A DNA stretch of 64,000 nt from IMG/VR virus record IMGVR_UViG_3300019760_000001, positions 43,714 through 107,713 of that record; one strand, written 5' to 3'. The DNA comes from a virus. The notes under the pieces are model-generated. The model was given only the letters and a program-made list of their open reading frames with translations, was not told where the DNA came from and did not search any database. Below, piece by piece: positions 34,204 to 63,067 of the stretch. The translations under genes and the position numbers were made by a program. Position 1 is the first letter of the stretch; the number at the start of each line of letters is the position of its first letter.

Positions 34204-34327
34204 TCTTTCGGATTAATAAAATTTAAGTGAGAGTAAAAAAGAATGTCCAGTTCCGTTCCTCTGATAGCACTTAATAAACAACAGGAGAAACTGGTACTGG
34301 ACGAACCGGGCTACTGCTGTTTATTAA
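34204..34327 (-). promoter_or_regulatory. Pseudoknot leader A with CGAAAGA start motif
   Basis: On the minus transcript a 14-bp stem (34314-34327 with 34271-34284, one mismatch) encloses a loop segment at 34296-34302 that pairs with 34245-34251 further down, giving an H-type pseudoknot. An AT-rich stretch and CGAAAGA (34210-34204) lead to the ATG at 34199. Three related leaders occur at 37.4, 60.9 and 62.9 kb. Confidence 0.7.
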
Positions 34328-34412
34328 AAGCTACTAAGAGATTATACTGGGTAAGCACTTAAAGATAGATTAATACTGAGAGATATAAGTAAAAGTAATA
34401 GTTCGCTAAAAA

Positions 34413-34489
34413 CCGACAAAAGTGTGGAATATAGTACCGACAAAATAGCAGGTTATACACCGACAGATTGGCGGAAATTAATGCCGACA
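34413..34489. repeat. Iteron-like array, four CCGACA repeats at 23-24 bp
   Basis: CCGACA begins at 34413, 34437, 34460 and 34484. Each unit starts ACCGACAAAA or GCCGACAAA and continues with a related sequence (two share GGTTATAC). Spacing of 23-24 bp is the range of plasmid and phage iterons bound by a Rep protein. AT-rich DNA and hairpins follow. This is my best candidate for a replication origin, or an operator for the adjacent wHTH protein. Confidence 0.55.
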
Positions 34490-34668
34490 AACATACGGTT
34501 ATACGCGGTTTATCTATTAAAGGGAATATCTAGTAAAGATATTCATCTTAATAAAGATAAAGATCAGTCGCACCAACTGCTAAGGCTTGGGAGCCTACAC
34601 ATATGGTGCTGAAATTGCGAGAGTTGGAGGAGGTTTGACGAATTACTGCAAACAATAGTAAGGCTCAA
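34490..34668. other. AT-rich segment and hairpins next to the iterons
   Basis: No gene is convincing. GAATATC and GATATTC (34524-34544) form a 7-bp inverted repeat, and GCACCA/TGGTGC encloses AGGCT-tggg-AGCCT at 34570-34609. These are the kinds of secondary elements found beside iteron origins. Confidence 0.45.
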
Positions 34669-35199
34669 CTAGTTCTGTTCCTCACCATACCATTCTTCGT
34701 AGTCATCATCAGAACCATACTTCGTAGTTAAGGCCCATCTAATTGAAGCTTCCTCAGAATCAAGCTGTCCGACAGACATATCGTCGAACTTACCTTCGCC
34801 ATTAGTGAATGTTAGAACTCCACAGTTGTACCCAATATCTTCATCAGCAAAAGTTGCTGTGAAAGTATGGTCAGGATGAACAATTGATAAGTGCTTAATA
34901 ATAGCCTCTGGACAAGACCAAGCTGTATCGAACTGTACTTCTGTATCAGAGATAATAATATCGTAGCAATTCCACTTAGTTCCCCAGTTCTTCAGTCTCC
35001 AAGTGTACCAGTTGTCTGCTCCGTACTTGGTAATAAGCTCCTCGTTAGGTTCACAAGGAGAAGTAGTTCCCTCAAGCCCAGACGGCATAGGAATGATTAA
35101 ATTAAAATCAAACTCAGATTCCGATGATTGGTACTTAGGTAAAATTGTACCCGCTTCTGGTCCGCTAATAGTTAGTGTAGTTGTAATATTGTTTGGCAT
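34669..35199 (-). CDS. DUF1281 / Api92-like protein, 176 aa
   Basis: MPNNITTTLTISG, FDFNLIIPMP, NWYTWRLKNWGTKWN and FDTAWSCPEAI occur in the order typical of the DUF1281/Api92-like family found in phages and plasmids. The C-terminal ferredoxin-like part has lower identity. Function unknown. Confidence 0.8.
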   Translation of the reverse strand: MPNNITTTLTISGPEAGTILPKYQSSESEFDFNLIIPMPSGLEGTTSPCEPNEELITKYGADNWYTWRLKNWGTKWNCYDIIISDTEVQFDTAWSCPEAIIKHLSIVHPDHTFTATFADEDIGYNCGVLTFTNGEGKFDDMSVGQLDSEEASIRWALTTKYGSDDDYEEWYGEEQN

Positions 35200-35208
35200 G
35201 AAATGCTC

Positions 35209-35700
35209 CTATAAATAAAAATATGGTTCAACCGCAGTCAGTACATCATCCCTAGGCGTACCTATAGGGAAGTAAAGAAATGGTTCAGCTAATGTGCTTG
35301 GCAATGAATCAGTTAGTTGCTGGAAACGCTCCTGTCGATAGTGAAGTTCTGTATGATCAGCAACCAGTTGGAAGCCAGTCATTAAGTCGTTGACCAGATA
35401 GTAAGTGTGACCAAGAGATACAAGAATATGTTCAATGTCCTTTTGGTCCTCAGATTGAACACCTTTGCCGTTGGGGTGTTTCCACTCCAAGTGAAGGCTA
35501 ATAGCATTTGGTAAATACACCAATATGTCAGGTATGCCATTGACCATACCGTCTGCTTTGGCTTGGTTAATAATCTGTGCCTTGACCTTTGGTGAACCAG
35601 GCAAAGTAATCCCGTTCAATGACAGACTCACTAGGCAATCTGGGTACAGAAAGTTAAACAATGAGATCCAAGTACGTTGTAGCTGGGCTTCGCTAGTCAT
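35209..35700 (-). CDS. VRR-NUC-type nuclease, 163 aa
   Basis: I start at 35700, directly after the upstream stop. GIPDILVYL, HLEWKHPNGKG, SEDQKDIEHILVSLGH and YLVND match the VRR-NUC core (GxPD, E-x-K, QxxW-like helix). The E is Glu-Trp-Lys, giving an E-x-K active site. VRR-NUC enzymes act on branched DNA; several phages encode stand-alone copies. Confidence 0.75.
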   Translation of the reverse strand: MTSEAQLQRTWISLFNFLYPDCLVSLSLNGITLPGSPKVKAQIINQAKADGMVNGIPDILVYLPNAISLHLEWKHPNGKGVQSEDQKDIEHILVSLGHTYYLVNDLMTGFQLVADHTELHYRQERFQQLTDSLPSTLAEPFLYFPIGTPRDDVLTAVEPYFYL

Positions 35701-35701
35701 G

Positions 35702-36235
35702 CTACCAACTACTACAATATTCGTACTCTGCGTTAGGGTCGAGTTCTGCAATCGACTTGATTGTGTACTCCAAGTCCTCAACAAACCACTCATCGATATG
35801 TGAAGAGCCAAAGAAGAAACCAGAAGTTGGTACTATTGGTAAATCTTCAAGATCAACATCATAAACTTGAATAGTTTTCGTTAGTTGACCTTCGGATGAA
35901 CTCCAACCTGCATCAACTACTTTGTCAATTATCGGGCATTCACTTAAGAAGTCAAGTGTTTCCTGACACAATTTGCTAAGAGACTCCAATTGCTTGAAGG
36001 AAACCCAGTGAGGCATACATTCATCAACACCATCCTGCACTTCAGAAATAAACCAATTGTGGATTGCGTTCGCTTTCCGCCAGTAGATTGCTTCTTCCTC
36101 GATATAAGTTAGCTTCGACAAATCAACTGCTAATGGCTTACCATCTTTTAATATGTTAATTGATCCTGTTATTTTGTTGTGCTCGTAGTTGCCACCCACG
36201 TAAATTTTCTTTGTTAGGTACATATCTAGTCCCAT
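35702..36235 (-). CDS. Conserved phage protein, 177 aa
   Basis: MGLDMYLTKKIYVGG, YWRKANAIHNWFISEVQDG and ECMPHWVS is a combination found in many uncharacterised phage proteins. It contains several Trp and Cys but no catalytic motif I can name. Confidence 0.75.
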   Translation of the reverse strand: MGLDMYLTKKIYVGGNYEHNKITGSINILKDGKPLAVDLSKLTYIEEEAIYWRKANAIHNWFISEVQDGVDECMPHWVSFKQLESLSKLCQETLDFLSECPIIDKVVDAGWSSSEGQLTKTIQVYDVDLEDLPIVPTSGFFFGSSHIDEWFVEDLEYTIKSIAELDPNAEYEYCSSW

Positions 36236-36237
36236 AA

Positions 36238-37383
36238 TTAATCTCCTTCTCTACTAAATAATTCCATATCCTTGAACTTCTCATAAGCTAGGTTAAGGAT
36301 ATTCGTTTTGAATAATTCTGTATTACCTGACTTCAATAAGTCAGGACCTGTATACTTATGGTCAATGAATTCTCTAAGAATTCGCTGTTCCTCATTGTAA
36401 GCATCTTTTCCGGACTTATAATGGATTTGATGTAAGACTCTGATATTACTCATATCAAGCCCGAATCTCTCTTTAATTGTCCGGTTTGTTATACCGATCT
36501 TATACGCTTCTCCGTTATTGATTGAAAGATAATATAGTACAGCTGATTTAGCCCCATCAAACCCCGTTTTCGTACAGGAAGAGCAGCCTCTACCTGATAG
36601 GTGATCGGAGGCTATTTGTTCAAAATCACCATGCGTTGAGCAAGTGATTATCACTTTACTTTTCGCATTTGTGTATATTGTATTTGAGTAATAGTACTTA
36701 TTATTATGTACTTTTTGTGATTCTTTGATAAAGTCTTTCGTGGTTTTATTCCTACCTAGACATCTAGGGCAACCAGACCCAACCAAATGACTACTAGGAG
36801 TTTGTTCAAAGTCTCCATGTATTGGACAGGTTATTTTTACATTGTCTCTTGCAGTTGTGTACTCGACGTTTGTATAAGTGTAAGTATTATTATGCACTGC
36901 TTTTGCTTGTAGTATAAATTCTTGAGTACTGGATTTTTTAGCTTGGCTACTCTTTGCAATGCCACACTTTCTGCACCCAACACCTTTTAGGTGATTTGTA
37001 GGTACTTGCTTAAAATCCCCGTGGATTGGGCAAGTAATGATCACAGGTTCATGTGCAGAGTGATAAGAAATATTAGAGTAGGTGTAAAAATCATTATGTA
37101 CTTCAACGGCCTCCGCAATAAAACTGAAAACTGATTTACGTAAACGATTTCCTACAGCCTCGTTTTTACATCTACTACACCCAGAACTTTTAAGGTGTCC
37201 TTCAGCTCTTTGCTTATAAGTAAAATTATGTATTTTACACGTAATCGTAATAGGATTTTTAGCACCTGTGTACACAGCCTCACTATAATCACATTTATCA
37301 TCATACAGACCAATTAGCTTCTTTTTAAAATTTTTATAAGCCTGTATAGATCTAGGATTGGTAATACCTGGATGTAATTTCAT
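36238..37383 (-). CDS. GIY-YIG endonuclease with four repeated DNA-binding modules
   Basis: Residues ~1-280 contain four copies of a module with the pattern Y-x-Y-(S/T)...(I/V)-T-C-x-(T/I)-H-G-D-F...H-L-x-G-x-G-C-x-x-C, a DUF723-like zinc module. SAVLYYLSINNGEAYKIGIT (~283-302) is a T5orf172-type GIY-YIG core. The modules probably read the target. It is a freestanding homing-type nuclease. Its first module resembles the start of the HNH protein at 61007. It carries pseudoknot leader B. Confidence 0.8.
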   Translation of the reverse strand: MKLHPGITNPRSIQAYKNFKKKLIGLYDDKCDYSEAVYTGAKNPITITCKIHNFTYKQRAEGHLKSSGCSRCKNEAVGNRLRKSVFSFIAEAVEVHNDFYTYSNISYHSAHEPVIITCPIHGDFKQVPTNHLKGVGCRKCGIAKSSQAKKSSTQEFILQAKAVHNNTYTYTNVEYTTARDNVKITCPIHGDFEQTPSSHLVGSGCPRCLGRNKTTKDFIKESQKVHNNKYYYSNTIYTNAKSKVIITCSTHGDFEQIASDHLSGRGCSSCTKTGFDGAKSAVLYYLSINNGEAYKIGITNRTIKERFGLDMSNIRVLHQIHYKSGKDAYNEEQRILREFIDHKYTGPDLLKSGNTELFKTNILNLAYEKFKDMELFSREGD

Positions 37384-37388: not shown

Positions 37389-37507
37389 TCTTTCGACAGC
37401 ATTAAATTTAAGGAGAGGATAAGAATTGTCACGTTTTTATACTCTATAGAGCCCTAATAAAGAGTATTAACAGAACGTGACTGAAACTGCTTAATACTCT
37501 TTATTAG
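37389..37507 (-). promoter_or_regulatory. Pseudoknot leader B with CGAAAGA start motif
   Basis: A perfect 17-bp stem (37454-37470 with 37491-37507) has a 20-nt loop. Loop bases 37474-37481 pair perfectly with 37428-37435 outside, completing an H-type pseudoknot on the minus transcript. CTTAAATTTA and CGAAAGA (37395-37389) lead to the ATG of the GIY-YIG gene. It aligns with leader A. Confidence 0.75.
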
Positions 37508-37537
37508 AAATCTATCTTAATTATACCTAAGAAAGTC

Positions 37538-44539: not shown

Positions 44540-44876
44540 CGGGTGGAATCTAGTTAGTTTACAGGAGTCGTTCCAATTCTCCTCTGACAAGACCAGACTC
44601 AGTTTACCAACACTTCTGCAGGATCTCCCGTAGCATGCGATGACATTGACATCACTGGTTGTACCCTCTGTAGCGAGTGGCTTACCTAGCAAGGCGCCAA
44701 TAGCACACGGAACAGGTTGTTTCTGCTCCAGCAATGACCTCACGTTGTTTCGCCTCTATGTCTTTCAATAGTTAGGTAAGATTACAGGTTCCATCGATTA
44801 TGATGTCGTTTAACACTACTCCACCACTAATTCCATCGCGTACGGGTGGTTAGAAGTCTGTGCCTGTTTGGTTACT
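44540..44876. other. Gene-poor stretch with short inverted repeats
   Basis: I see no convincing gene. CCACC and GGTGG (near 44821-44850) and other short inverted repeats suggest structured leader RNA for the tRNA cluster. Confidence 0.35.
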
Positions 44877-45086: not shown

Positions 45087-45122
45087 CACTTCTCCTTTAT
45101 AAATGTTTGGTATTGTTTCCAA

Positions 45123-51279: not shown

Positions 51280-51280
51280 A

Positions 51281-51478: not shown

Positions 51479-51561
51479 GTTTAATCCTTTGTTTTTGACA
51501 GGCCTTCATTGTAGAAGAGTTGAAGGTTTTTGACCTTTTGTTTATTGAAGTTTCACGGAAT

Positions 51562-52050: not shown

Positions 52051-52155
52051 TAAATATTCCTTTGCTTGCTTAATCAACAAGAAAAAAGAAAGCACTCTGC
52101 AAGAGAACACCCTGTTAAGGGACCTCCGGTAGGATAAAGAAAAAAAAAGAACAAA

Positions 52156-52434: not shown

Positions 52435-52464
52435 GTTATTTCCTTTGTATTAAGTTATAATGGG

Positions 52465-54165: not shown

Positions 54166-54205
54166 ATTTTGCCTTTATATTAAATTTGGGTTGGTTGGGA
54201 TTAAA

Positions 54206-54223
54206 GTAAGGCCGAAGCCCTAC
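54206..54223 (-). terminator. 7-bp UUCG hairpin before the RNA polymerase gene
   Basis: GTAGGGC-UUCG-GCCTTAC on the minus transcript with one G-U pair lies between the 279-residue gene and the polymerase gene. The following UUUAAU is a weak U-run. Confidence 0.5.
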
Positions 54224-54224
54224 T

Positions 54225-55064: not shown

Positions 55065-55135
55065 GTTTATCCTTTATGAGTTGTGGTTCTGACTGATACA
55101 ATCCAGTCATAGAAGTAGTGAATACCAAACAGTTA

Positions 55136-55438
55136 TTAGGCTGTTTGTTGTGGTTGAGCGTGGATATGAGAGTCTGGTAGCATTAATGCTATTTGCTCGT
55201 CACTATAGTCCAGTTCTCGTAACCTGTCTACCGCTGTGTTAGTAGTTGTTGCTAAGTCTACTACTGAGTCAACTAAGTCACCTTTACAGTCGTTGTTGAA
55301 CTGCTTCGCTACACCTGCAATTGCTTGCATAGACTCATCTACTGTGTTGAGTGTTGAACCAATTACTGATTCGGTTGAGTTGAGAGTAGTTTGTGCTAAT
55401 GCACCTACTGATTTGAATATGCCTGTTTTTCTTGCCAT
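55136..55438 (-). CDS. Helical protein, 100 aa, paralogue of the 94-aa protein at 58.2 kb
   Basis: MARKTGIFKSVGALAQTTLN aligns with MRRASIFQSTKQVAQTTAS of the gene at 58169-58453, and both continue as long Ala/Val/Asp helices. The two genes share length and start motif, so they are paralogues. Unknown function. Confidence 0.65.
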   Translation of the reverse strand: MARKTGIFKSVGALAQTTLNSTESVIGSTLNTVDESMQAIAGVAKQFNNDCKGDLVDSVVDLATTTNTAVDRLRELDYSDEQIALMLPDSHIHAQPQQTA

Positions 55439-55516
55439 TTGTTTGCCTTTATGTTGAGTTGGTTGTTAATGAAATTAATCACATAAACAAATAAAATACA
55501 AGGAGTTAATCATGTA

Positions 55517-55639
55517 CTATTTGATTGGTTGAGACAAGTCAATGCCTGCTATGAACTCCTCTGCTGGAGTGGGAGTTTCTGCTATGTCTGCCAGTAAGGC
55601 TCGACATATGTTGAAGTTTGCTAGTTGATACTGGTTCAT
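55517..55639 (-). CDS. Small protein, 40 aa
   Basis: MNQYQLANFNICRALLADI begins in overlap with the upstream stop (ATGA). Acidic C-terminus. Unknown. Confidence 0.5.
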   Translation of the reverse strand: MNQYQLANFNICRALLADIAETPTPAEEFIAGIDLSQPIK

Positions 55640-55704
55640 TTGTCATCTCCGAAGAATTGGTTAGTTGATTGTTTACGCCATTTTGCTAAGATTATGTCTT
55701 TCAT
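55636..55704 (-). CDS. Very small ORF, 22 aa
   Basis: MKDIILAKWRKQSTNQFF starts behind AAGGA and overlaps the next gene's ATG as ATGA. Basic. Translation likely by coupling, function unknown. Confidence 0.45.
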   Translation of the reverse strand: MKDIILAKWRKQSTNQFFGDDK

Positions 55705-55714
55705 TATCAAGTCC

Positions 55715-55882
55715 TTATCTGTTGTTGTATGACCACATATTGAAGCCACTTGTTGGTTTACTGAACATGTTAGTTACAGTAGTTGATGATTTGCTATAGT
55801 TGTGTTTGTTGTTGGTACTCAGTACTTCGGCTAACACATAAGTTGCACATAGTAGTGCTAGTAGAATTGCTATTTGTTTCAT
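55715..55882 (-). CDS. Exported small protein, 55 aa
   Basis: An N-terminal signal (MKQIAILLALLCATYVLAE, cut after Ala) precedes a short polar mature part. AAAGGA upstream. Periplasmic or envelope peptide. Confidence 0.55.
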   Translation of the reverse strand: MKQIAILLALLCATYVLAEVLSTNNKHNYSKSSTTVTNMFSKPTSGFNMWSYNNR

Positions 55883-55934
55883 GTTAAATCCTTTATGTTA
55901 ATTTGTACAGGCACTTAAGCCTGGGTCGAGACGA

Positions 55935-56150
55935 CTAAATTCCTATTAATACTGGGAAATCATCATGTCTAGGTTTTATAGGGCTTGGTAACCAAATCAT
56001 ATCTGGTTGAGGTCCTTTACCTAATGATTTCAGTTCTCTAACTGCTTCTAGAATGTAGTACCATTGGTCTGTACAGTCTACCTCTATTATATCTTCATCG
56101 TAGTATTTACCTGTTTGTTTGAATGTTGTTATCTTTATTTCTATTGTCAT
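55935..56150 (-). CDS. Conserved phage-type protein, 71 aa
   Basis: FKQTGKYYDEDIIEVDC and AVRELKSLGKGPQPDM are typical of small proteins of unknown function in phages. Beta-rich N-terminus. Confidence 0.65.
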   Translation of the reverse strand: MTIEIKITTFKQTGKYYDEDIIEVDCTDQWYYILEAVRELKSLGKGPQPDMIWLPSPIKPRHDDFPVLIGI

Positions 56151-56437
56151 TTTTATGTCCTTTCATAGGCACGTACTTGAACTTGGGCCAAGACGGTGTT
56201 TTTAATTGGTTAATACTTTTACAGTTTGGTTATTATAAGTATTGTAGTAGTGTTGTAGTAAATAGAGTGTGTATGTGGCATAGTGCAAGTTTGGTGTTGC
56301 TCAAACATTGCAATTTGTCATGTTTTGTTGTGGAATGCTGCACAAATGCAATGCTGTAGACCGTAAAACCACCCCACAAACCCACACAATCCTCTATAGA
56401 GTTATGGTTGTGTAGAAAGTATACAGTTGGTTGGTTA
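56151..56437. other. Gene-poor region upstream of 56150
   Basis: No gene seen. A TATAAT (minus strand, near 56239) has only a weak -35. ACACAA/TTGTGT enclose a CTCTATAGAG palindrome near 56380-56416. Probably leader and terminator DNA. Confidence 0.4.
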
Positions 56438-56650
56438 TTAATACTCTAAGCATGGGCAAGTAGGTAAGTCCATTGGGTCTTCCCACTCGACACCGCAGTT
56501 AGGGCAGATAAATCCTTGTCCACGATTGGGTTGAAAGTCTGGTTTCTCATCTGGTAGGCTATCTAACCACTCATCCTCTAAATCATAGAGCATGTCTCTT
56601 GTATCCTGTTTATTTACTTCTTGCCAAAAGGCTTTGTCTGATTCAGTCAT
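56438..56650 (-). CDS. Acidic zinc-ribbon protein, 70 aa
   Basis: CPNCGVEW and CPCLEY at the C-terminus give a ribbon of two Cys pairs. The N-terminal 45 residues are acidic. First gene of the minus block. Confidence 0.65.
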   Translation of the reverse strand: MTESDKAFWQEVNKQDTRDMLYDLEDEWLDSLPDEKPDFQPNRGQGFICPNCGVEWEDPMDLPTCPCLEY

Positions 56651-57000
56651 TAGTTGTCCTTTAGTTAAATTATTTACCTAAACACATAAAGTATCGGATT
56701 AAAGAGTTTTTGCAAATACAATCCAACCAGGTGAAATGAACCATACTGTCCAATTGAATAGAGTGAAATTAATAAAACCTATTATTCGACCTAAACCCCA
56801 CAACTAAAGGAAAAACATACTAAAAAAATCCACAGTTGCGCTATTAGTATATAGGATGTATAGAGGATTAGTAAATAGATAAATTAGGTCACTGTCTGAC
56901 TCAAAAATAGGTCAATGACCGATTTATTAGCCCAAAACCCCGCTGTTTTTCCCTTAACTAAAGGCTTTAAGACGAGTTTTGCTCTTATTTGCTAACGCTC
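56651..57000. other. Divergent regulatory region
   Basis: Between the first minus gene and the plus operon lie a possible minus promoter (TTGCAA...TACTTT near 56690) and repeats described separately. No gene is evident. Confidence 0.4.
56885..56920. repeat. Direct repeats TAGGTCA (23 bp apart) with palindrome
   Basis: TAGGTCA occurs at 56885 and 56908. The second copy is part of GGTCAATGACC. A related inverted copy (CGACCTA) is at 56787. They lie 80-115 bp upstream of the ParB-like promoter and may be an operator or partition-like site for that protein. Confidence 0.45.
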
Positions 57001-57029
57001 TTGACATAATCAGTCAACTATGGTATACT
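57001..57029 (+). promoter_or_regulatory. Near-consensus sigma70 promoter of the plus operon
   Basis: TTGACA (57001-57006), a 17-bp spacer and TATACT (57024-57029) precede the ParB-like start by about 31 bp. It should be recognised by host RNA polymerase early after infection. Confidence 0.8.
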
Positions 57030-57059
57030 ACTGACAGATTACACACAAAGGATAACACA

Positions 57060-57770
57060 ATGGAAATATTAGAAACAGAGAGTTTGGTGCTACACCCAGA
57101 GGCATTAGCAACACCACGAATGAACGTAGAACAGTTTGAAGCACTGAAAGACCACATAGACAAACACGGTCAGTTAGAACCAGTTACAACATACAGAGGG
57201 AAGATAGTTGATGGTAGACACAGATGGTTGGTACTCCAAGAACTTGGGATTGGTACTATTAAAGCAGTTAAGATGGCAAATAATAGTACACTACAACAAA
57301 TTAAGGATGTAGTAATTGGGAAAGAAACAAGAAGACATGAAACTGCTAGTCAATTGGCAATTAGAGCATACAAGCATATCCTCGGAAGCACAGACAAGAT
57401 AAGCCAAGCCGAAGCAGCTAAGATGTTTGGGGCAAATGTTAAGAGAATAAGCGAAGCAAAGAAGATAGCAGTAACATACAATAGACCAGATATACTAGAG
57501 TTGTTGTTTGATGGAGAGAAATTCAACACAGGAACAACTGATATACCATTTTTGACTGATTCACTTGGTACTATACTAAGATGGTTAGCAGATAATTGGA
57601 CTATAAAGAACTCGGAAGTACAGATTGGGTTAGAGCCAAGGACTGAGTTAACAGAAACAGAGCAGCTGATAGTTAATAAGTTCCTTGCAGTACTGAAGAA
57701 AGAGTCTGAGATAGTTAGGACTGAGGTAATAAAGGTTGGTTATGCCATGCTGAAGGAAGGAAACGAATAA
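57060..57770 (+). CDS. ParB/Srx-domain protein, 236 aa
   Basis: I start at 57060, where AAAGGA lies 9 nt upstream and just after the promoter. GQLEPVTTYRGKIVDGRHRW (residues ~36-55) is the ParB-like nuclease/CTPase core with its GR-x-R-like turn. ISQAEAAKMFGANVKRISEA (~113) is a helix-turn-helix. It may bind the TAGGTCA repeats upstream. Partition or transcription control is possible. Confidence 0.75.
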   Translation: MEILETESLVLHPEALATPRMNVEQFEALKDHIDKHGQLEPVTTYRGKIVDGRHRWLVLQELGIGTIKAVKMANNSTLQQIKDVVIGKETRRHETASQLAIRAYKHILGSTDKISQAEAAKMFGANVKRISEAKKIAVTYNRPDILELLFDGEKFNTGTTDIPFLTDSLGTILRWLADNWTIKNSEVQIGLEPRTELTETEQLIVNKFLAVLKKESEIVRTEVIKVGYAMLKEGNE

Positions 57771-57779
57771 AGAAAAAAG

Positions 57780-57809
57780 AATAACCAAAACCCGAAGGTT
57801 AAGGTTATT
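57780..57809. terminator. Bidirectional rho-independent terminator
   Basis: AATAACC-AA-AACC and GGTT-AA-GGTTATT enclose CGAA. On the minus strand the stem is followed by ATTCTTTTTTCT, a good U-run. It separates the convergent ParB-like gene and the minus pocket. Confidence 0.8.
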
Positions 57810-57855
57810 TGAAGAATAGCTGTTTGCTATCTTCGTCGTATTGCTCATCAAACAT
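57805..57855 (-). CDS. Very small ORF, 16 aa
   Basis: GGAGG precedes the ATG at 57855, giving MFDEQYDEDSKQLFFK. It ends inside the terminator. Support is only the ribosome site. Confidence 0.3.
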   Translation of the reverse strand: MFDEQYDEDSKQLFFK

Positions 57856-57856
57856 G

Positions 57857-58144
57857 TTACACCTCCGCAGTAAGTTGAGCTAATAAGTCAATATCGTCAA
57901 CACCATTCATTGATGGAGCTAATAGGTCCTCTGCGTAGAAGTACACAGCATTTGTTATACCATAGATTTCATCAGTTGAGAAGATTTGGTTAAGCTGAGT
58001 ACCAGATACTGAGAAGTTAGCTATCTTAGCAACACGAACTGAGTTAGGACGTTTCAACATAGTAGCCAATGCGTCTTTAGAAGCTTTGTCAAGAGTTGAA
58101 GTCATTTTGTTTATGATTAGTTGTTGTTTGTTTGTTAATTCCAT
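57857..58144 (-). CDS. Hypothetical protein, 95 aa
   Basis: Helical product (KQQLIINKMTSTLDKASKD). Paired with the 94-residue gene upstream. Unknown. Confidence 0.6.
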   Translation of the reverse strand: MELTNKQQLIINKMTSTLDKASKDALATMLKRPNSVRVAKIANFSVSGTQLNQIFSTDEIYGITNAVYFYAEDLLAPSMNGVDDIDLLAQLTAEV

Positions 58145-58168
58145 TATATATCCTTTATATTAAGTTGT

Positions 58169-58453
58169 TTAAGCTATTGCGCTTAGTAAGTTTGCTTTTA
58201 GTTGTGCTTTCACATCATCAGGTATGTCCATCTTATCAATAGCAGTTTGTTGAGCATATGCTTCAGCAGTAATGTTAGCTACATCCATAACAGATTGTAC
58301 CTTAGCTTCTTTGATATCAGTACCGTCTTCGATACTGTTAAGCTCACGAGTTACTTTGATTTGGTCAACAACTAAGCCAGCTGTTTCTTCTATGATTGAC
58401 GCAGTTGTTTGCGCTACTTGTTTGGTTGATTGAAAGATAGATGCTCTTCGCAT
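58169..58453 (-). CDS. Helical protein, 94 aa, paralogue of the 100-aa protein at 55.1 kb
   Basis: MRRASIFQSTKQVAQTTAS matches the start of the gene at 55136-55438. Ala-rich helices throughout. The copy lies in a separate minus pocket beyond the plus promoter, so one copy was moved or duplicated. Confidence 0.6.
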   Translation of the reverse strand: MRRASIFQSTKQVAQTTASIIEETAGLVVDQIKVTRELNSIEDGTDIKEAKVQSVMDVANITAEAYAQQTAIDKMDIPDDVKAQLKANLLSAIA

Positions 58454-58616
58454 AATAAATCCTTAGATTAAGCTATGTCTATGACACGCCTAAGCAAGTA
58501 AAGTAAACGGTTCAGGGAAGTACATGAATTGAATGGCAGGTGAAATCAATGGGGGGGCCGTCTGGTTGTATGTCGGTAAAAGTGATATTAGTACCTCCCT
58601 CCCCGAAAATTTAAAA

Positions 58617-58712
58617 ATGACACACGTCTTACTGATAATCGTTATCAATACCATACTTATCATCTATATTATCCTACTAATAAACAATGGAGTTATCAAA
58701 TCAGTAGTATAG
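58617..58712 (+). CDS. Small hydrophobic ORF, 31 aa
   Basis: The frame MTHVLLIIVINTILIIYII is one transmembrane helix with a basic end. There is no good ribosome site, so the call is weak. Confidence 0.3.
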   Translation: MTHVLLIIVINTILIIYIILLINNGVIKSVV

Positions 58713-58880
58713 GGTATAAAAGACCGGCTGAGCGGAGGGTTAAGAGCGTGCCTATGAGAACTTGGTAATACCAAAATCACCTGCTCGGTTGAGGTTGAGG
58801 TAAGGCCTAGACAAGTTGGTAAATACCCGATCCTATAAAATTTCCGGAAATAATTCAGTAGAAGTTAAGTATATTGAGAG

Positions 58881-58886
58881 TATACT
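58881..58886 (+). promoter_or_regulatory. TATACT -10 element with shared downstream box
   Basis: TATACTGTTAGTAACAAAGG is followed by AATAAGCATG. Nearly the same string, TATACTGATATTAACAAAGG, is at 62039. No -35 is visible, so an activator or other polymerase may be needed. Confidence 0.5.
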
Positions 58887-58907
58887 GTTAGTAACAAAGG
58901 AATAAGC

Positions 58908-59084
58908 ATGAAAGAACAACTAGAACAAATTATAATAACTACTGAATATCAGTTAGAGTGCGCACTACAAGAACTGGCAAAAGCTGATGACTACATGGTG
59001 CCCACAAAAACGTATGAGTTGAGAGTAGCTGAGACAAAAGGTGAACTAAAAGCACTAAGAATGGTACATGGGATGTTAGGATGA
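58908..59084 (+). CDS. Small helical protein, 58 aa
   Basis: AAAGGA precedes the ATG at 58908. MKEQLEQIIITTEYQLECA is the start of a helical, charged protein. It overlaps the RHH-like gene as ATGA. Confidence 0.6.
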   Translation: MKEQLEQIIITTEYQLECALQELAKADDYMVPTKTYELRVAETKGELKALRMVHGMLG

Positions 59085-59224
59085 ACAGAGATAAAACAAT
59101 AATGATCAGACTGACACAAGATGAGAAAAAGAAGATTGAGAAGGCAGCAGACAGTACACCAACAGCCGTGTGGGCCAGGCAAAAGCTGCTAGATATAGTA
59201 AAAACACAGACAGGAGATAAATAA
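59081..59224 (+). CDS. Ribbon-helix-helix-like protein, 47 aa
   Basis: IMIRLTQDEKKKIEKAADST followed by AVWARQKLLDIV matches the RHH (MobC/CopG-like) pattern: a basic beta strand then two helices. Coupled to both neighbours. Likely early regulator. Confidence 0.6.
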   Translation: MNRDKTIMIRLTQDEKKKIEKAADSTPTAVWARQKLLDIVKTQTGDK

Positions 59225-59703
59225 TGATAGAAGTACACTATATGAAAAAAGACGAAGTGAAAATCACAGTAGCCTCTGATAGTATAAATAGACTATCGTG
59301 TATGGTACACGAAGATGCTAAACCAATAACAGCTGATGGAGTTAACGTACCCCAAATTCAGTACAAGACTGAGGAAATAGACATCAGGGAGTACAGACTT
59401 GGGAAACACAAGTTCTACATAGCAGCAAGAAATGGTACGGAGTGGTACACGATAGTAGCAAAACTAGCAACTGAAGTTGGTGAGTACAGCGAAGCAATAC
59501 AAGCTGGTATTGACATGATCAGGTATTCAGAAAAACAGCCTGCATTTGTTGTCGTGTCTAGCTACGTACTAGACAAACTCCTGAGCATCGCTGACAGAGG
59601 TCAATATCAACCTGCGTACATGAGTGAGAATGGTGTAGATACATATATGAACGTGCCAATTGCTGTGGTTAGCACAGATAAAATAATAGTAAAGGTTGTG
59701 TGA
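59224..59703 (+). CDS. Hypothetical protein, 159 aa
   Basis: Beta-rich product (IDIREYRLGKHKFYIAARNG) with a helical middle. The start overlaps the previous stop (TAATG). Unknown. Confidence 0.65.
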   Translation: MIEVHYMKKDEVKITVASDSINRLSCMVHEDAKPITADGVNVPQIQYKTEEIDIREYRLGKHKFYIAARNGTEWYTIVAKLATEVGEYSEAIQAGIDMIRYSEKQPAFVVVSSYVLDKLLSIADRGQYQPAYMSENGVDTYMNVPIAVVSTDKIIVKVV

Positions 59704-59885
59704 TGCCTTGGACATGTACAAAAGAGATGAGATGGTTGGAAACAGATGATAGTACTCAGGTATTAAGTAGCAATGGAGACCTTGTTGGTATGTACCCAGC
59801 AACAAAGCAAGTACTACAACAAAAATGGGTAAGCAACACAGGCGAAGTTAAATGGCTAGATGTGCCGACAGTAAAGGAGCAGTAA
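59703..59885 (+). CDS. Hypothetical protein, 60 aa
   Basis: I prefer the ATG at 59703 over a GTG at 59700. Trp-rich small protein (MPWTCTKEMRWLE). Unknown. Confidence 0.6.
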   Translation: MPWTCTKEMRWLETDDSTQVLSSNGDLVGMYPATKQVLQQKWVSNTGEVKWLDVPTVKEQ

Positions 59886-60157
59886 TGACTAAAGAAAATT
59901 ACGCACAAGCAAAATACATCCAAGAGAGGATTGATAAAGTAGAGACACGTAACGAATTGTACGACAACCACATAGCAGGAATAGCCGACTTCAAGTGGCA
60001 CGTTGAGGTAGTTGAGGATCGCTACAGTGGAGTTAAGACAGAAAAGATACGAGACGACGTGATATCCGACTACGAGATTACCAAGTTGATGGAGTACCTG
60101 GATGAGATCAGGGAACAAGAACTAGAAGAACTATATAACAAATTCGAGGAGATATGA
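59885..60157 (+). CDS. Hypothetical helical protein, 90 aa
   Basis: The start at 59885 overlaps the previous stop (TAATG) behind AAGGAG. Acidic helical C-terminus (KLMEYLDEIREQELEELYN). Unknown. Confidence 0.65.
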   Translation: MTKENYAQAKYIQERIDKVETRNELYDNHIAGIADFKWHVEVVEDRYSGVKTEKIRDDVISDYEITKLMEYLDEIREQELEELYNKFEEI

Positions 60158-60471
60158 TGAATTACTACGGAATAAACAAGAAAATAGAAGTACAAAGAAC
60201 AGACTGGGTTGGCCCAAAAGCAAGAATAGAGCAAAAGAAAGCTGATGCGCTGCTAGATGAGATTGTGGAACACACGATCGATGCAACTTGTACTGGTGGA
60301 AGAATGGGGCCGCCGTACGACAGGCTGGTGAAAGACTTGTTTAGTAAATACACCAATCTGGGATTTGAGTGTACTGCTCAACAAGGAGATTATTACTCAA
60401 TGTCACTTACACTAAAAGGCACACATCGCGCAATGATAGAGCAATTTGGGGAAGGGTACGATGGCTGCTAA
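60154..60471 (+). CDS. Hypothetical protein, 105 aa
   Basis: Starts in overlap with its neighbour behind GAGGAG. The C-terminal YGRMGPP-like region and a FECTAQQGDYYSMSLTLKG sheet are not a known family. Confidence 0.6.
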   Translation: MMNYYGINKKIEVQRTDWVGPKARIEQKKADALLDEIVEHTIDATCTGGRMGPPYDRLVKDLFSKYTNLGFECTAQQGDYYSMSLTLKGTHRAMIEQFGEGYDGC

Positions 60472-60853
60472 GCGTAAGAAGAAACAAGGACCAAAGCAAA
60501 ATGGTTGGGTGTACGTGATCAAGATTTGGTTAAAAGGGGAAGTCCTATTAAAAATTGGCACTACTAATAGAAACCCAAATACACGAGCGATTGAGATTGC
60601 GACTCAATGCCTAGAGCTGTTTGGGGAGATACCGAGAATGCGAGTGGTTGGTAGTAAACAAGTCCGTGAGAATTATGCAGTGGAGAAGGAACTACTTGAC
60701 AGAACAGCAAAATACACATTTGTCCCGGATGAGAGGTTGCACGGCTACTCAGAGTTTAGGCGTATGGGTGAAGTTGACTTACTAAAAGAGTTCACGAATT
60801 GTGTAAATAAAGCTTACCCAGCAGTGAAACCACCTGAATTAATCTGTATGTAA
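60461..60853 (+). CDS. GIY-YIG (T5orf172-type) protein, 130 aa
   Basis: I start at 60461 (GGAAGGG upstream). NGWVYVIKIWLKGEVLLKIG and TTNRNPNTRAIEI give the GIY-YIG variant core with its Lys-Ile-Gly-x-Thr and Arg. The C-terminus is short and has no extra DNA-binding module. It may be a nuclease or a derived protein. Confidence 0.65.
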   Translation: MAAKRKKKQGPKQNGWVYVIKIWLKGEVLLKIGTTNRNPNTRAIEIATQCLELFGEIPRMRVVGSKQVRENYAVEKELLDRTAKYTFVPDERLHGYSEFRRMGEVDLLKEFTNCVNKAYPAVKPPELICM

Positions 60854-60859
60854 GCCAAT

Positions 60860-60888
60860 ACTTTGTATAATTAAGGTACAAAGTTTTT
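60860..60888 (+). terminator. Rho-independent terminator
   Basis: ACTTTGTA and TACAAAGT form an 8-bp stem with a 9-nt loop, followed by TTTTT. It ends the early operon just after the GIY-YIG gene. Confidence 0.8.
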
Positions 60889-60890
60889 AA

Positions 60891-60997
60891 TAAAGAGGTC
60901 AATCTTGGCGGACTCACCTCTTTAGTAAGTACTTGATAAGAAGTCCGCCAACTCTTCTGAACACTATCAAACTTAAAAATTAACCTATGGCGAAAGA
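60891..60997 (+). promoter_or_regulatory. Pseudoknot leader D with CGAAAGA start motif
   Basis: TAAAGAGGT (60891-60899) pairs with ACCTCTTTA (60916-60924), and TTGGCGGACT (60905-60914) with AGTCCGCCAA (60942-60951). The two stems are interleaved with loops of 5, 1 and 17 nt, a textbook H-type pseudoknot. An AT-rich stretch and CGAAAGA (60991) precede the HNH start. Confidence 0.8.
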
Positions 60998-61006
60998 AAC
61001 ATAATA

Positions 61007-62038
61007 ATGAAATTACACTCAACTGTAACGAACAAAGTATCTATAAAGACATACAATAAACTGCCTAGCAGGATAGCTCAAATCCACGGAGATAAATACG
61101 ACTACTCTCTATTTACATTTAAGGGGGTTAAAGACTCTAGTACACTTCGATGTAATACAGGTAGACACCCTGATTGGGAAACTAGTATGGACAAGCATCT
61201 AAATGGAAAGCTAGGTTGTCCCTTATGTGCGCTAGAGAAGAAAATCAAACCTACTGCAAAGCTCTATGTCGAATACCAGAGAAGGTTAGGACTTGGTATA
61301 CTAAATGCTGTGCACACCTACTGCAAGTTTAAGAAGCCGCCTGCACTTTTATTAATAGGTAAACTTAATAAAAGGTTGAAAAATGAGGCAACAAAGAAAC
61401 AACAACGAAAAGAAGTTAAGAGGTTATCAGATAAGAAATATAGAGAGAATAATAAAGAACGACTAGCCGCAAAAAATAAAGCGTGGAGAAATAAAGACAT
61501 TGAAGCTTATAGAAAGTCGGAGAGGGAACGGAGGAGTAACCGATCGGCGGAAGAGGTAGAACGACAACGACTAGCTAGACAAGAGTATAATAAGGCAAAC
61601 TCCGCTAAAGTCAAACAAGCTAAGAGAGAGTCTAGATTGAGACACATTGAGAAAGCTAAAGCTACTTGTAAACGTTACAGAGAGTCTGCTAAAGGCCAGG
61701 CAATTGCTAAAGAAGCTAGAGCAAAGTACACAAGTAAGAAAAAAGAAGTCAGTGACGGAACAGTAACAGGTCCGGCATTGAAAGCATTAATGGAGGATCA
61801 AAGGCACCGCTGTAAGTACTGTGATAATGTATTGACTTACTTAAAGCCCAAGTATATACACTTAGATCACGTATTTCCTATCAGTAAAGGAGGCTTACAC
61901 ACAATAAACAATGTAGTTTGGAGTTGTGCTTCATGCAACTTGAGTAAAAGCTCAAGTACTGACTACAGCTTCCATCCTAACCAACAGACAGCGGCTAAAG
62001 ACTATGTGACAGTTCAGCCAACGTTAATAGAGATGTGA
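61007..62038 (+). CDS. HNH endonuclease with DUF723-like N-terminus, 343 aa
   Basis: Residues 1-75 (MKLHSTVTNKVSIKTYNK, HLNGKLGCPLCA) match the first module of the GIY-YIG protein at 36238-37383, which has four copies. A long basic coiled coil follows (residues ~110-240). The C-terminus has HRCKYCDNVL, IHLDHVFPISKGGLHTINN and CASCNLSKS, an HNH with zinc Cys. A freestanding homing-type nuclease with its own terminator and pseudoknot leader. Confidence 0.85.
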   Translation: MKLHSTVTNKVSIKTYNKLPSRIAQIHGDKYDYSLFTFKGVKDSSTLRCNTGRHPDWETSMDKHLNGKLGCPLCALEKKIKPTAKLYVEYQRRLGLGILNAVHTYCKFKKPPALLLIGKLNKRLKNEATKKQQRKEVKRLSDKKYRENNKERLAAKNKAWRNKDIEAYRKSERERRSNRSAEEVERQRLARQEYNKANSAKVKQAKRESRLRHIEKAKATCKRYRESAKGQAIAKEARAKYTSKKKEVSDGTVTGPALKALMEDQRHRCKYCDNVLTYLKPKYIHLDHVFPISKGGLHTINNVVWSCASCNLSKSSSTDYSFHPNQQTAAKDYVTVQPTLIEM

Positions 62039-62044
62039 TATACT
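62039..62044 (+). promoter_or_regulatory. TATACT -10 element with shared downstream box
   Basis: TATACTGATATTAACAAAGG followed by AATAACATG repeats the arrangement at 58881 but overlaps the end of the HNH gene. No clear -35. Confidence 0.45.
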
Positions 62045-62064
62045 GATATTAACAAAGGAATAAC

Positions 62065-62211
62065 ATGATAGAAATAGAAGAGATAGTAGACGAAGTAGTG
62101 GACTTGGTAGATAACAAGTTGAATGAAAGAGGTATTGACTTGGTAACAGACGAAGCAGACGAACTGCGTGAGTGTGTGCAGATGATACTGGAAGTAAGAG
62201 AAGGGCTATGA
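62065..62211 (+). CDS. Small acidic protein, 48 aa
   Basis: AAAGGA precedes the ATG. MIEIEEIVDEVVDLVDNKL is an acidic amphipathic helix protein. It overlaps the next gene (ATGA). Confidence 0.6.
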   Translation: MIEIEEIVDEVVDLVDNKLNERGIDLVTDEADELRECVQMILEVREGL

Positions 62212-62333
62212 GAAAATCAAAACAACAGACAATGTACCGACGTAAGAAAAGTAAAGTAAAAGCAGATAAGTCGCAAATAAAACCAACAACACCAGGATTG
62301 GTAGAATGGTTGTTAGGTAAATTACGTGGATAG
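62208..62333 (+). CDS. Small basic protein, 41 aa
   Basis: MRKSKQQTMYRRKKSKVK is highly basic, then a hydrophobic end (GLVEWLLGKLRG). Charge and size suggest nucleic-acid or membrane binding. Coupled to both neighbours. Confidence 0.55.
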   Translation: MRKSKQQTMYRRKKSKVKADKSQIKPTTPGLVEWLLGKLRG

Positions 62334-62721
62334 ACTGGGTAATTCCTTCTGGACGGAAAATGAAGTCACAGATTTCAACAAACAGGACATAACACCAGAC
62401 AAGCCAAAGTGGAATGTAGAGCCGACACAAAAGAGTATGGCAACATACACACTCCACAAGGATGGTAAGTTCACAGGCACGATGCTGATACTAGCAGTTG
62501 ATAGTCAGATCGACACATACGAAGCACTGAATACCGAATGGGTTGAAACTGGATTGGTAGTGCAGCTTGGTGAATGTGGAGACCCGACATACGGCTGGGA
62601 GAAGAAGATTGAGGCGCTACAAATCGTACTAGAGCGATACAAATACACACCAAAATTCAATAATGTGCTTGGTTGTGATTGCATATACCGATACGAACAA
62701 TGGATCGAGAACTTGTTGTAA
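62326..62721 (+). CDS. Hypothetical protein, 131 aa
   Basis: The start is a GTG overlapping the previous gene by 8 bp. A central DGKFTGTMLILAVDSQID sheet and a Cys pair (LGCDCIYRY). Unknown. Confidence 0.6.
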   Translation: MDRLGNSFWTENEVTDFNKQDITPDKPKWNVEPTQKSMATYTLHKDGKFTGTMLILAVDSQIDTYEALNTEWVETGLVVQLGECGDPTYGWEKKIEALQIVLERYKYTPKFNNVLGCDCIYRYEQWIENLL

Positions 62722-62908
62722 ACCTATTAATAATATAGTAATATTAGAGTTGTGGAGACAAAAAGGCCAACTAAGCCGATGGCCACTGGGATTCGGGCTA
62801 GTTGATAATTTCCTAGACAGGAAATAAACATAATAAATAGATCAGGTAAATTGCCTACACAAGAAACAAAATACCAACCAGTTAAGCTTCCATTAATGTG
62901 GGTTGGTG
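62722..62908. other. Structured non-coding region
   Basis: CAACTA(A)GCC pairs with GGCTAGTTG (62768-62804) and ATTTCCT-AGAC-AGGAAAT is a 7-bp hairpin at 62808-62825. No gene is seen. It forms the far leader of the wHTH gene at 63072. Confidence 0.45.
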
Positions 62909-62914
62909 TATACT
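62909..62914 (+). promoter_or_regulatory. TATACT -10 element before the wHTH gene
   Basis: GTTGGTGTATACTAACAAC lies about 19 bp before the first strand of the pseudoknot. No matching -35 at 16-18 bp. Confidence 0.4.
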
Positions 62915-62932
62915 AACAACATAGAAAGATTC

Positions 62933-63067
62933 CTGACGAGCGTCCTAGTTCATCTGGAATATCCACCAAAATAAAATGGTCGGGTGTTCGTCAGAGATCT
63001 TCATTGAAGAGTGCAGATGAATTAGGACGCAACTGACACTCAAACTCAACTAAATTATTCCGAAAGA
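62933..63067 (+). promoter_or_regulatory. Pseudoknot leader C with CGAAAGA start motif
   Basis: CTGACGA (62933-62939) pairs with TCGTCAG (62988-62994), and a 17-bp stem (62940-62956 with 63014-63030, one mismatch) is interleaved with it. Two small hairpins fill the loops. CGAAAGA (63061-63067) is 4 nt before the ATG at 63072. Confidence 0.75.

Follow-up and report, generated by a model that had tools for sequence, protein, structure and literature searches.

Interlocked-pseudoknot leaders form a candidate family of cis-acting translational elements on phage mRNAs

Four genes of a virus of bacteria follow leaders that belong to a family of 17, the other 13 coming from 11 further viral contigs. 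In the shared order, helix A lies at or near the predicted 5' end of the mRNA, helix B is interleaved with A, and helix C is interleaved with B and reuses the end of the 3' strand of A; CUUAAAU, usually GAAAGA, and then the AUG follow 3' of helix C. In our reading, which we consider evenly balanced between right and wrong, these elements are 5'-terminal leaders that act in cis on the translation of phage mRNAs and make up a new family, probably switching by strand exchange between A and C. What computation established is that the helices exist and persist across divergent sequences, together with their position, spacing and spread. The window, meaning the whole stretch analysed, comprises 64,000 nt (positions 43,714 to 107,713 of IMG/VR record IMGVR_UViG_3300019760_000001), with leaders W1 and W2 on the minus strand and W3 and W4 on the plus strand. 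An initial annotation had described each as an H-type pseudoknot. All four sets of coordinates were confirmed, and the two interleaved stems are present in W1 to W4 (matched by 0/300 dinucleotide shuffles under a rule that allows trimming), but the fold is not a single pseudoknot: it consists of at least two that interlock, and helix C and the wider family had been overlooked. The features of the window leaders are as follows.

34341-34346, minus strand: W1 -10-like TATAAT (-10 scan)
34314-34325, minus strand: W1 helix A 5' strand, pairing with 34273-34284 (curated pairing; shuffles)
34296-34302, minus strand: W1 helix B 5' strand, pairing with 34245-34251 (curated pairing; shuffles)
34273-34284, minus strand: W1 helix A 3' strand (curated pairing)
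34268-34274, minus strand: W1 helix C 5' strand TTAAGTG, pairing with CACTTAA at 34223-34229 and overlapping the end of the A 3' strand (curated pairing; swap test)
34245-34251, minus strand: W1 helix B 3' strand (curated pairing)
34223-34229, minus strand: W1 helix C 3' strand (curated pairing; swap test)
34204-34209, minus strand: W1 GAAAGA (motif search)
33657-34199, minus strand: gene behind W1, HTH_36, replication-initiation O-like (Pfam; PHROGs)
37520-37525, minus strand: W2 -10-like TATAAT (-10 scan)
37491-37505, minus strand: W2 helix A 5' strand, pairing with 37456-37470 (curated pairing; shuffles)
37474-37481, minus strand: W2 helix B 5' strand, pairing with 37428-37435 (curated pairing; shuffles)
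37456-37470, minus strand: W2 helix A 3' strand (curated pairing)
37452-37457, minus strand: W2 helix C 5' strand TTAGGG, pairing with CCTTAA at 37408-37413, one G-U (curated pairing)
37428-37435, minus strand: W2 helix B 3' strand (curated pairing)
37408-37413, minus strand: W2 helix C 3' strand (curated pairing)
37389-37394, minus strand: W2 GAAAGA (motif search)
36238-37383, minus strand: gene behind W2, DUF723 / phrog_681 endonuclease (Pfam; PHROGs)
60866-60871, plus strand: W3 -10-like TATAAT (-10 scan)
60891-60899, plus strand: W3 helix A 5' strand, pairing with 60916-60924 (curated pairing; shuffles)
60907-60914, plus strand: W3 helix B 5' strand, pairing with 60942-60949 (curated pairing; shuffles)
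60916-60924, plus strand: W3 helix A 3' strand (curated pairing)
60926-60930, plus strand: W3 helix C 5' strand TAAGT, pairing with ACTTA at 60971-60975; lowest C score of 13 swap-tested
60942-60949, plus strand: W3 helix B 3' strand (curated pairing)
60971-60975, plus strand: W3 helix C 3' strand (curated pairing)
60992-60997, plus strand: W3 GAAAGA (motif search)
61007-62038, plus strand: gene behind W3, HNH endonuclease with an N-terminus resembling that of the W2 gene (Pfam; protein comparison)
62909-62914, plus strand: W4 -10-like TATACT (-10 scan)
62933-62939, plus strand: W4 helix A 5' strand, pairing with 62988-62994 (shuffles)
62940-62956, plus strand: W4 helix B 5' strand, 17 bp, pairing with 63014-63030 (shuffles)
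62988-62994, plus strand: W4 helix A 3' strand; its last 5 nt, GTCAG, possibly form helix C with 63033-63037 (tentative)
63014-63030, plus strand: W4 helix B 3' strand
63033-63037, plus strand: W4 tentative helix C 3' strand CTGAC, with no chance test behind it
63062-63067, plus strand: W4 GAAAGA (motif search)
63072-63905, plus strand: gene behind W4, 277 aa, no family at E<=0.001, weakly similar to DnaD/Rep profiles

The curated stems measure 12 and 7 bp in W1 (the first extendable to 15), 15 and 8 bp in W2, 9 and 8 bp in W3 (the second extendable to 10), and 7 and 17 bp in W4. When both strands of the 64 kb were scanned and ranked by energy, the strongest independent sense-strand sites were W2 (-39.5), W3 (-37.2) and W1 (-33.3), and the best site outside the four leader regions reached -31.4; the rule used could not score the annotated W4 stem pair, and the value of -42.7 obtained for W4 under earlier rules reflects its 17-bp stem with a different 5' partner. 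With those earlier rules, 0/1000 and 0/500 shuffles reached the real value for the four window leaders. Because they scored a pair other than A+B in several members (including W4, L116, L149, L135 and L157) and could not score L086 in the first two shuffle tests, we ran the trimming-allowed test, which excluded the curated-pair energies with mismatches (L135, L194, L288). Here the chosen pair was the annotated one in W4 (-45.6) and A+B in W1 to W3; A+B was the best pair in 16/17 leaders, a different stem pair outscoring it in L135. No shuffle of 300 reached the best pair in 15/17 leaders, one did so for L005 and two for L157; in the 1000-shuffle test, L135 was reached by 1, L005 by 3 and L157 by 6.

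Several comparisons bear on conservation of this fold. First, stem sequences change freely while pairing is retained: 99% of A+B cells are paired, both partners changed in 6/20 A+B pairs, of which 5 belong to A, and 0/500 shuffles reach the covariation score of the A+B alignment. Second, helix C passed a strand-swap test (0/20,000 permutations, regions of 13 leaders), and the strand order A5-B5-A3/C5-B3-C3 occurs in 13/13 curated members, W4 being excluded from both counts. Helix C is weak in W3 and only tentative in W4, and is nearly invariant in a five-member alignment, where 219/500 shuffles reach its score and the alignment is thus uninformative about it. Covariation of A in homologues and the swap result for C fit the RNA-level selection proposed for these leaders. 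Third, the gap from C to the AUG is 22-25 nt in 13/17 leaders; measured from a common anchor, the spacing was met by 7/8 members versus 30/112 motif-only sites (p = 0.001). Fourth, non-Watson-Crick pairs make up 27/103 pairs in the part of A shared with C versus 8/125 in its inner part (p = 4e-5), a statistic for which the helices were selected by complementarity and the tentative W4 helix C was included. Finally, one U-G pair is retained in 5/5 members of the type II alignment; it would be A-C on the other strand, which favours the mRNA strand.

Upstream, a TATAAT or TATACT box is present in 10/16 scored leaders, the mean best -10 score exceeds that of 499/500 shuffles, and in 13/16 scored members the best -10-like box stands 4-25 nt upstream of helix A, although some boxes are weak. 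This placement, together with stem sequences that are free to vary as long as pairing persists, would also suit a fold that merely shields the mRNA against 5'-end-dependent decay and does not act as a specific switch of translation. We think such a stabiliser quite unlikely, as it leaves unexplained helix C and its near-constant distance from the AUG, the weak U-G pairs where A overlaps C, and the recurrent tail. That tail, AUU(A)UUGU...GAAAGA, recurs in many members; like the AUG it follows helix C on the 3' side and is not part of A, B or C. CGAAAGA, once proposed as the diagnostic start motif, occurs 13 times in the window and cannot be the essence of the family, because member L288b lacks GAAAGA, and with it part of the tail. 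A Shine-Dalgarno-like 4-mer, found in 36/52 scored window ORFs, is missing from all four leader genes as had been claimed, but the argument is weak because 12/48 other ORFs lack it equally. No Shine-Dalgarno site is evident inside the fold, so simple sequestration does not apply.

The initial annotation had recommended a covariance model, a wider search and a look for covarying pairs; these recovered window leaders and covariation in A. Model R1, built from five non-window leaders and no window sequences, matched W1 (5e-4), W2 (0.006) and W4 (0.008) in 835 kb but did not recover W3. Over the whole phage record, the four leaders found by model R2 were W1 to W4. R2 also recovered L087b and L288b, both absent from its alignment; their B stems, which lie outside the model, are perfect (13 and 8 bp), and helix C of L087b pairs perfectly with a different sequence. 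W3 (0.11) and L164 (0.22) were found weakly, and L277, a motif-only site, also matched (E 0.52). Accidental stems in AT-rich phage leaders, or biased retrieval, could be suspected: 10/13 non-window members were found with motifs from earlier leaders, window-derived motifs among them, and the covariance models include those motifs. A structure-only A-B-C descriptor matched real and reversed sequence alike (58 versus 57 at -45 in 2.36 Mb), so it was not used for membership claims and the case for the family rests on motif and structure jointly. The shuffles, swap test, covariation and out-of-alignment matches contradict such an origin, as does a score gap between members (9/34 sites at -28.6 or better) and the other 25 (-24.2 or worse); we regard it as hardly tenable. 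Of the 10 loci returned by two stricter motif scans of viral contigs, 5 were known members and the other 5 (L204-L208) lacked the fold. Among 24 motif matches that one strict pattern found in bacterial and archaeal genomes, none was strongly folded (best pair -26.1), and R2 had no match at E<=0.05 in 8 whole records of named phages or at E<=1 in 5 named-phage loci with homologous genes.

The genes downstream encode endonucleases, initiator-like proteins, AntA antirepressors and unknowns; 6/17 are endonuclease-like, and no function could be assigned to 7/17 of the proteins. The claim that all four window genes encode DNA-acting proteins, two of them DUF723-type, had to be narrowed: a DNA-acting role is not known for every downstream gene. 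Gene 1 has an HTH_36 domain (Pfam), only gene 2 matches DUF723, and gene 3 encodes an HNH protein that has about 75 residues at its N-terminus in common with gene 2 (31%). Gene 4 matched nothing in Pfam or PHROGs at E<=0.001; its weak hits were to an unknown family (0.0065) and to DnaD-like (0.031) and replication initiation (0.1) profiles, and the AlphaFold model of its protein, with a mean pLDDT of 39, added no information. Protein searches found no homologues outside the phage for gene 4 (viral contigs) or gene 1 (viral contigs and named phages). A self-contained element with a promoter-like box, sitting before unrelated, frequently mobile genes in phages whose gene content mostly overlaps little, might instead act as DNA, taking genes with it as a site of recombination or integration or as a hairpin origin. 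The chance of this seems slim: the element lies between the promoter-like box and the AUG, keeps its C-to-AUG spacing and conserves a U-G wobble that is sensible only on the mRNA strand, and no such leader was found at the related endonucleases L006-L008.

Returning to a translational leader, we propose the following mechanism, in which the transcription start, the effect on translation and the switch are inferred, without expression, probing or transcript-start data. Each leader would have its own promoter, with a transcript beginning at or just before helix A; the mRNA 5' end would then fold into interlocked pseudoknots, A with B and then B with C. Helix C ends some 23 nt before the AUG, where the footprint of an initiating ribosome has its edge. 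An A/U-rich stretch follows and then the start region, which in the window genes lacks a Shine-Dalgarno-like 4-mer. The nucleotides at the outer 3' end of A are largely those of the C 5' strand, and the other strand of C resembles the 5' strand of A with Watson-Crick partners mostly replacing its U-G wobbles, so C should be able to displace outer A. This exchange would set the usability of the ribosome landing site and may confine dangerous products (endonucleases, replication initiators, antirepressors) to particular times or conditions, in a proposal that specifies neither the trigger nor the sign of the switch (C as the on or the off state). The earlier suggestion of an undescribed translational control element, or one travelling with mobile genes, fits recurrence across mostly unrelated phages, although translational control is inferred from position. 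More tentatively, and with doubt prevailing over the combined proposal, promoter and 5'-terminal double-pseudoknot switch may form a transferable cassette that moves between unrelated phages, places any gene behind it (endonuclease, initiator, antirepressor or small unknown) under one common control, and senses a signal common to hosts or to phage infection. If translational control is confirmed, a double-pseudoknot leader family in phages with little else in common, with a proposed A/C strand exchange built into its fold, would provide a second, much broader case; it is relevant to how phages keep endonucleases, replication initiators and antirepressors in check, and the leader could serve as a compact control part in synthetic biology.

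No named riboswitch or ribozyme had been recognised by eye, and no relevant Rfam 15 family emerged at the gathering score, where the window gave two tRNAs only and 10 member loci one tRNA (L288 and L294 lay outside the scan). At E<=10, everything matched in the two leader stretches was sub-threshold and of microRNA, snoRNA, CRISPR-repeat or plant-virus type; the microRNA models covering W2 at E 0.03 and W4 at E 0.19 fell far below the gathering score and were taken as hairpin likeness. STAXI, which Rfam includes, was absent from the Rfam matches reported; it is a tandem-repeated pseudoknot, whereas these leaders occur once per gene. A leader pseudoknot also controls translation of the replication initiator repZ of IncI/L-type plasmids, but the gene set here is wider.

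The nearest analogue is the T4 gene 32 pseudoknot operator, of which this family is not a member. In that operator a leader pseudoknot precedes an unstructured A/U-rich sequence containing UUAA(A) before the start codon (PMC3014915), and T4 and RB69 operators diverge in sequence with similar structures (PMC535899). By sequence comparison our leaders have the same layout. A phage or host nucleic-acid-binding protein might nucleate on the pseudoknot, spread over the A/U-rich tail and repress a regulon. The shared layout, the four leader genes in one phage, the recurrent tail and a Sak4-like ssDNA-annealing protein match (window 12922-13821, E 1e-7) speak for such an operator. We nevertheless judge it unlikely, if worth keeping in mind: an incomplete search with PHROGs of 38 distinct window proteins gave no SSB match, the carriers mostly share few genes and each would need a cognate or host protein, and L288b lacks part of the tail. 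Moreover, the gene 32 operator is described as one pseudoknot that autoregulates an SSB gene, with no helix C mentioned; here C overlaps A, and the several unrelated downstream genes fall, where families were found, into endonuclease, HTH or AntA, none shown to be an SSB.

RNA structure also regulates translation of T4-type homing endonuclease genes, where hairpins sequester the ribosome-binding site of I-TevI, mobE and segB and the seg43 hairpin leaves it unsequestered (PMC2988022). Our leaders likewise place structure at the start of phage endonuclease genes. Unlike those hairpins, most of which hide the site, these are interlocked pseudoknots whose three helices do not include the start region, and they also precede initiator-like, AntA and unassigned genes.

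Cleavage by a self-cleaving ribozyme of pistol-like topology, with a helix, a pseudoknot into its loop and a third helix across the pseudoknot, would shorten the leader. Phages do carry self-cleaving RNAs, and the compact double pseudoknot here has the strand order of pistol (helix, pseudoknot, third helix). We hold this to be very doubtful: no ribozyme family was among the Rfam matches of the window, the two leader stretches or the 10 member loci, and relative to pistol the helices are longer, the loops variable and the recurring residues elsewhere. Compared by eye, the conserved loops of pistol differ, and an HDV-like reading lacks the catalytic-C joining region. A helix between a UUUC-type segment after the A 5' strand and GAAAGA, seen by eye, was dropped as inconsistent across members. 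The unpaired residues that recur are mainly found in the 3' tail, half of them missing from L288b. Loops differ widely in length (up to 11 nt for A5-B5, 0-65 nt for B5-A3), and many members carry hairpins within them.

The window leaders belong to a family of 17 that are most likely translational leaders, each a fold at the 5′ end of its message; their helices, strand order, spacing and spread are observed, and their transcription start, effect on translation and switching are inferred. In 13 members plus L294, L288 and L288b (L-numbers denote leaders or loci in other viral contigs; a and b, two copies in one contig), the strands run A5′, B5′, A3′/C5′, B3′, C3′, tail and AUG, where A, B and C are interleaved helices of 7–17, 7–17 and 5–8 bp and the tail is everything between C3′ and the start codon. 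W4, one of the four window leaders (W1 and W2, minus strand; W3 and W4, plus strand), matches this order with a tentative helix C. C5′ overlapped the 3′ end of helix A by 2–9 nt in 14 of 15 members, and in W3 lay 1 nt beyond it. Many members have a hairpin between C5′ and B3′; taken alone, this stretch had a negative folding energy in 10/15 (−1 kcal/mol or lower in eight of these) and no fold in 5/15. Type II leaders (L116, L149, L135, L086, L157, L294) carry a second hairpin in the helix A loop. Tails are rich in A and U and frequently read AUU(A)UUGU...GAAAGA; L288b carries CUUAAAUUUAUUA and no GAAAGA. In L135 (~5640–5760, plus strand), ATAATGTT in the helix A loop pairs with AACATTGT in the tail over 8 bp, which may add a further long-range contact in this one member.

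The initial annotation, which described four pseudoknot leaders with two interleaved stems each and CGAAAGA before the ATG, proved correct about where they lie in this 107.7-kb phage record (window, 43714–107713). When both strands of the 64 kb were scanned and ranked by stacking energy, W2, W3 and W1 were the top three independent sense-strand sites, and the first non-leader site scored weaker. The initial scoring rules could not score the annotated stem pair of W4; once trimming of overlapping stems was permitted, the annotated pair was the best in each of W1–W4, and none of 300 dinucleotide shuffles of the upstream 175 nt reached it for any of the four.

The family was collected in five steps. 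First, among homologues of the gene behind W2 (L005–L008), only L005 had the fold. Second, the pattern CTTAAAT(6–14)CGAAAGA(2–9)ATG occurred at no fewer than 120 loci in viral contigs, and the 120 listed included eight members (L086, L087, L116, L135, L149, L157, L164, L194); among the 115 scorable sites, seven scored −30 or better, every one a member, versus 1.3% of 10,113 control positions, and six reached −33, versus 0.44%. Third, L087 (hereafter L087a) contained a second copy, L087b. Fourth, the pattern TAAGG(34–63)YCTTAAAT(7–16)CGAAAGA gave 34 loci, with both stems at −28.6 or better in nine, among them the newly found L288 and L294, and at −24.2 or worse in the remaining 25. Finally, we used two covariance models, R1 and R2. 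R1 was trained on five non-window leaders (L149, L135, L086, L294, L116) with helix A as its only structure; these leaders had been retrieved by window-derived motifs, which R1 contains. In 835 kb, it matched L157 (3e-6), L288 (8e-4) and L005 (0.04) outside the window and W1 (5e-4), W2 (0.006) and W4 (0.008) within it, did not recover W3, and gave only one further non-training match below 0.05, which lay antisense to one of the training leaders. R2, built from 12 members, matched L086, L288b (7.5e-4) and L087b (1e-3) outside its alignment and, weakly, W3 (0.11) and L164 (0.22). Over the whole phage record at E≤0.05, it found four copies, all inside the window, the weakest being W3 (0.011).

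Among 100 motif-scan loci without known members, R2 gave 11 matches at E≤1. L156 and L119, in which no interleaved stems were found, and one of two L161 matches, a repeat, were judged to be non-members. This verdict covers those three only, not L187, the second L161 match, L138, L163, L176, L092, L114 or L153; L187 and L156 had the same R2 score and length.

Helix C was evaluated by swapping strands among 13 members collected without reference to it (W4 excluded), comparing the best pairing between the A3′-end region and the region after B3′ for own and swapped partners. The mean was −9.4 for own versus −7.3 for swapped partners, and none of 20,000 permutations reached the own value. Swaps of curated strands from 15 members likewise gave 0/20,000 for each of A, B and C, but these strands had been picked for pairing. 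Within the alignment of type II leaders, 99% of the cells in A and B combined were paired, and no shuffle among 500 attained their joint covariation score; helix B itself was nearly invariant there, as was helix C, which was uninformative in that alignment alone (219/500 shuffles). Counting against helix C, it is weak in W3 and tentative in W4.

Helix C strands (5′/3′) in five leaders
L087a: TTAAGGG/CCCTTAA
L087b: TTATGAG/CTCATAA
W1: TTAAGTG/CACTTAA
L157: TTAAGATT/AATCTTAA
L149: TAAGGT/ACCTTA

In 13 of 17 leaders, 22–25 nt separated C3′ from the AUG, the exceptions being W3 (31), W4 (34), L164 (32) and L157 (17, or 23 when measured to the second ATG), and L288b kept 23 nt without GAAAGA. With a common anchor in the first scan, 22–25 nt was found in 7/8 members versus 30/112 motif-only sites. 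Judged from sequence, such near-constant spacing is what one would expect of a translation element. In 10/16 members, a TATAAT or TATACT box preceded helix A by 5–25 nt, and the mean best −10 score exceeded 499/500 shuffles (−35 boxes were not scored). The message would therefore start at or near helix A, an inference made without a mapped transcript start.

The C5′ nucleotides shared by helices A and C paired better in C. In register with A, they made 23 G-U pairs and 4 mismatches among 103 positions (16 members, including W4's tentative C), versus 3 G-U of 103 in C, and A's partner strand agreed with C3′ at 75/103 positions. Choosing helices by complementarity inflates the figure for C. The contrast between the shared part of A and its inner part, where 8/125 pairs were non-Watson-Crick, is less affected by this selection (p = 4e-5), with some shared parts extending past the stem as drawn. 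From these base-pairing patterns alone, we read C3′ as an invading strand that could displace the outer part of A. In the proposed mechanism, the leader RNA would fold at the mRNA 5′ end, helix C would border the initiating ribosome on its upstream side, and A/C exchange would be the moving part, its trigger and sign not known. Competing readings are a protein operator like that of gene 32, an mRNA stabiliser, a ribozyme, a DNA element and chance. The family would work like the gene 32 operator. It belongs to none of the families that could be tested, and in open-access literature on pseudoknot, homing endonuclease, repZ and antirepressor leaders and structured phage RNAs, no description of this leader was among the matches listed (PMC3014915, PMC2988022, PMC2864571, PMC535899).

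Genes behind the 17 leaders comprise six endonuclease-like, two replication-initiator-like, two AntA antirepressors and seven without assignment.

Genes behind the leaders
W2: endonuclease-like, DUF723/phrog_681
W3: endonuclease-like, HNH
L005: endonuclease-like, relative of the W2 gene
L087a: endonuclease-like, HNH below the Pfam cut-off
L194: endonuclease-like, GIY-YIG below the Pfam cut-off, truncated by contig end
L288b: endonuclease-like, NUMOD1, relative of the phage G7C HNH endonuclease
W1: replication-initiator-like
L157: replication-initiator-like, below cut-off yet similar to staphylococcal phage initiators
L288, L294: AntA antirepressors
W4, L164, L116, L149, L087b, L135, L086: no assignment

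The carriers are diverse. The window phage shares 15/79 ORFs with the L005 phage and 10/127 with the L135 phage, which are therefore distant relatives, and 0–3 with eight other carriers (L288 and L294 by part of the contig only; L086 excluded); pairs of carriers share 0–10. Among the top matches listed, its DNA polymerase most resembles Alteromonas phage polymerases (30–34% identity), and blastp matched its ORFs to 18/147 of AD45-P1 and 12/103 of R22Y. An R2 search did not find the element in its nearest named relatives. Because few ORFs are shared and these relatives lack the element, the leader is likely to have spread from one phage or gene context to another. None of five named homologues of downstream genes had it, and in G7C the intergenic gap is 1 nt. 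IMGVR_UViG_3300019761_000013 was identical to window 44589–64000 across the 19.4 kb compared (100%) and was thus counted as the same phage, not an independent member.

Endonuclease-related features of the window phage
16362–17162 (−): HNH gene
49834–50553 (−): HNH gene
36238–37383 (−): endonuclease
61007–62038 (+): endonuclease
60446–60853 (+, window): T5orf172/phrog_681 C-terminal piece just upstream of W3

No interleaved stems were found upstream of the two other HNH genes. The two endonucleases have ~75 N-terminal residues in common (31%) and identical first four residues, with different leader stems. The T5orf172/phrog_681 piece is perhaps a remnant of, or part split from, another endonuclease.

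Other interleaved stem pairs lie upstream of endonuclease-like ORFs. L029, L031 and L037 have a 7-bp and 24-bp pair at 1841–1940 (+), immediately 5′ of a DUF723-like endonuclease ORF; these stems are possibly a separate leader type, since R2 had no match in the L029 and L037 records (that of L031 was not included). R2 likewise had no match in the L039 record, where interleaved stems of 8 bp and 12 bp lie at 1453–1544 (+), upstream of an endonuclease-like ORF.
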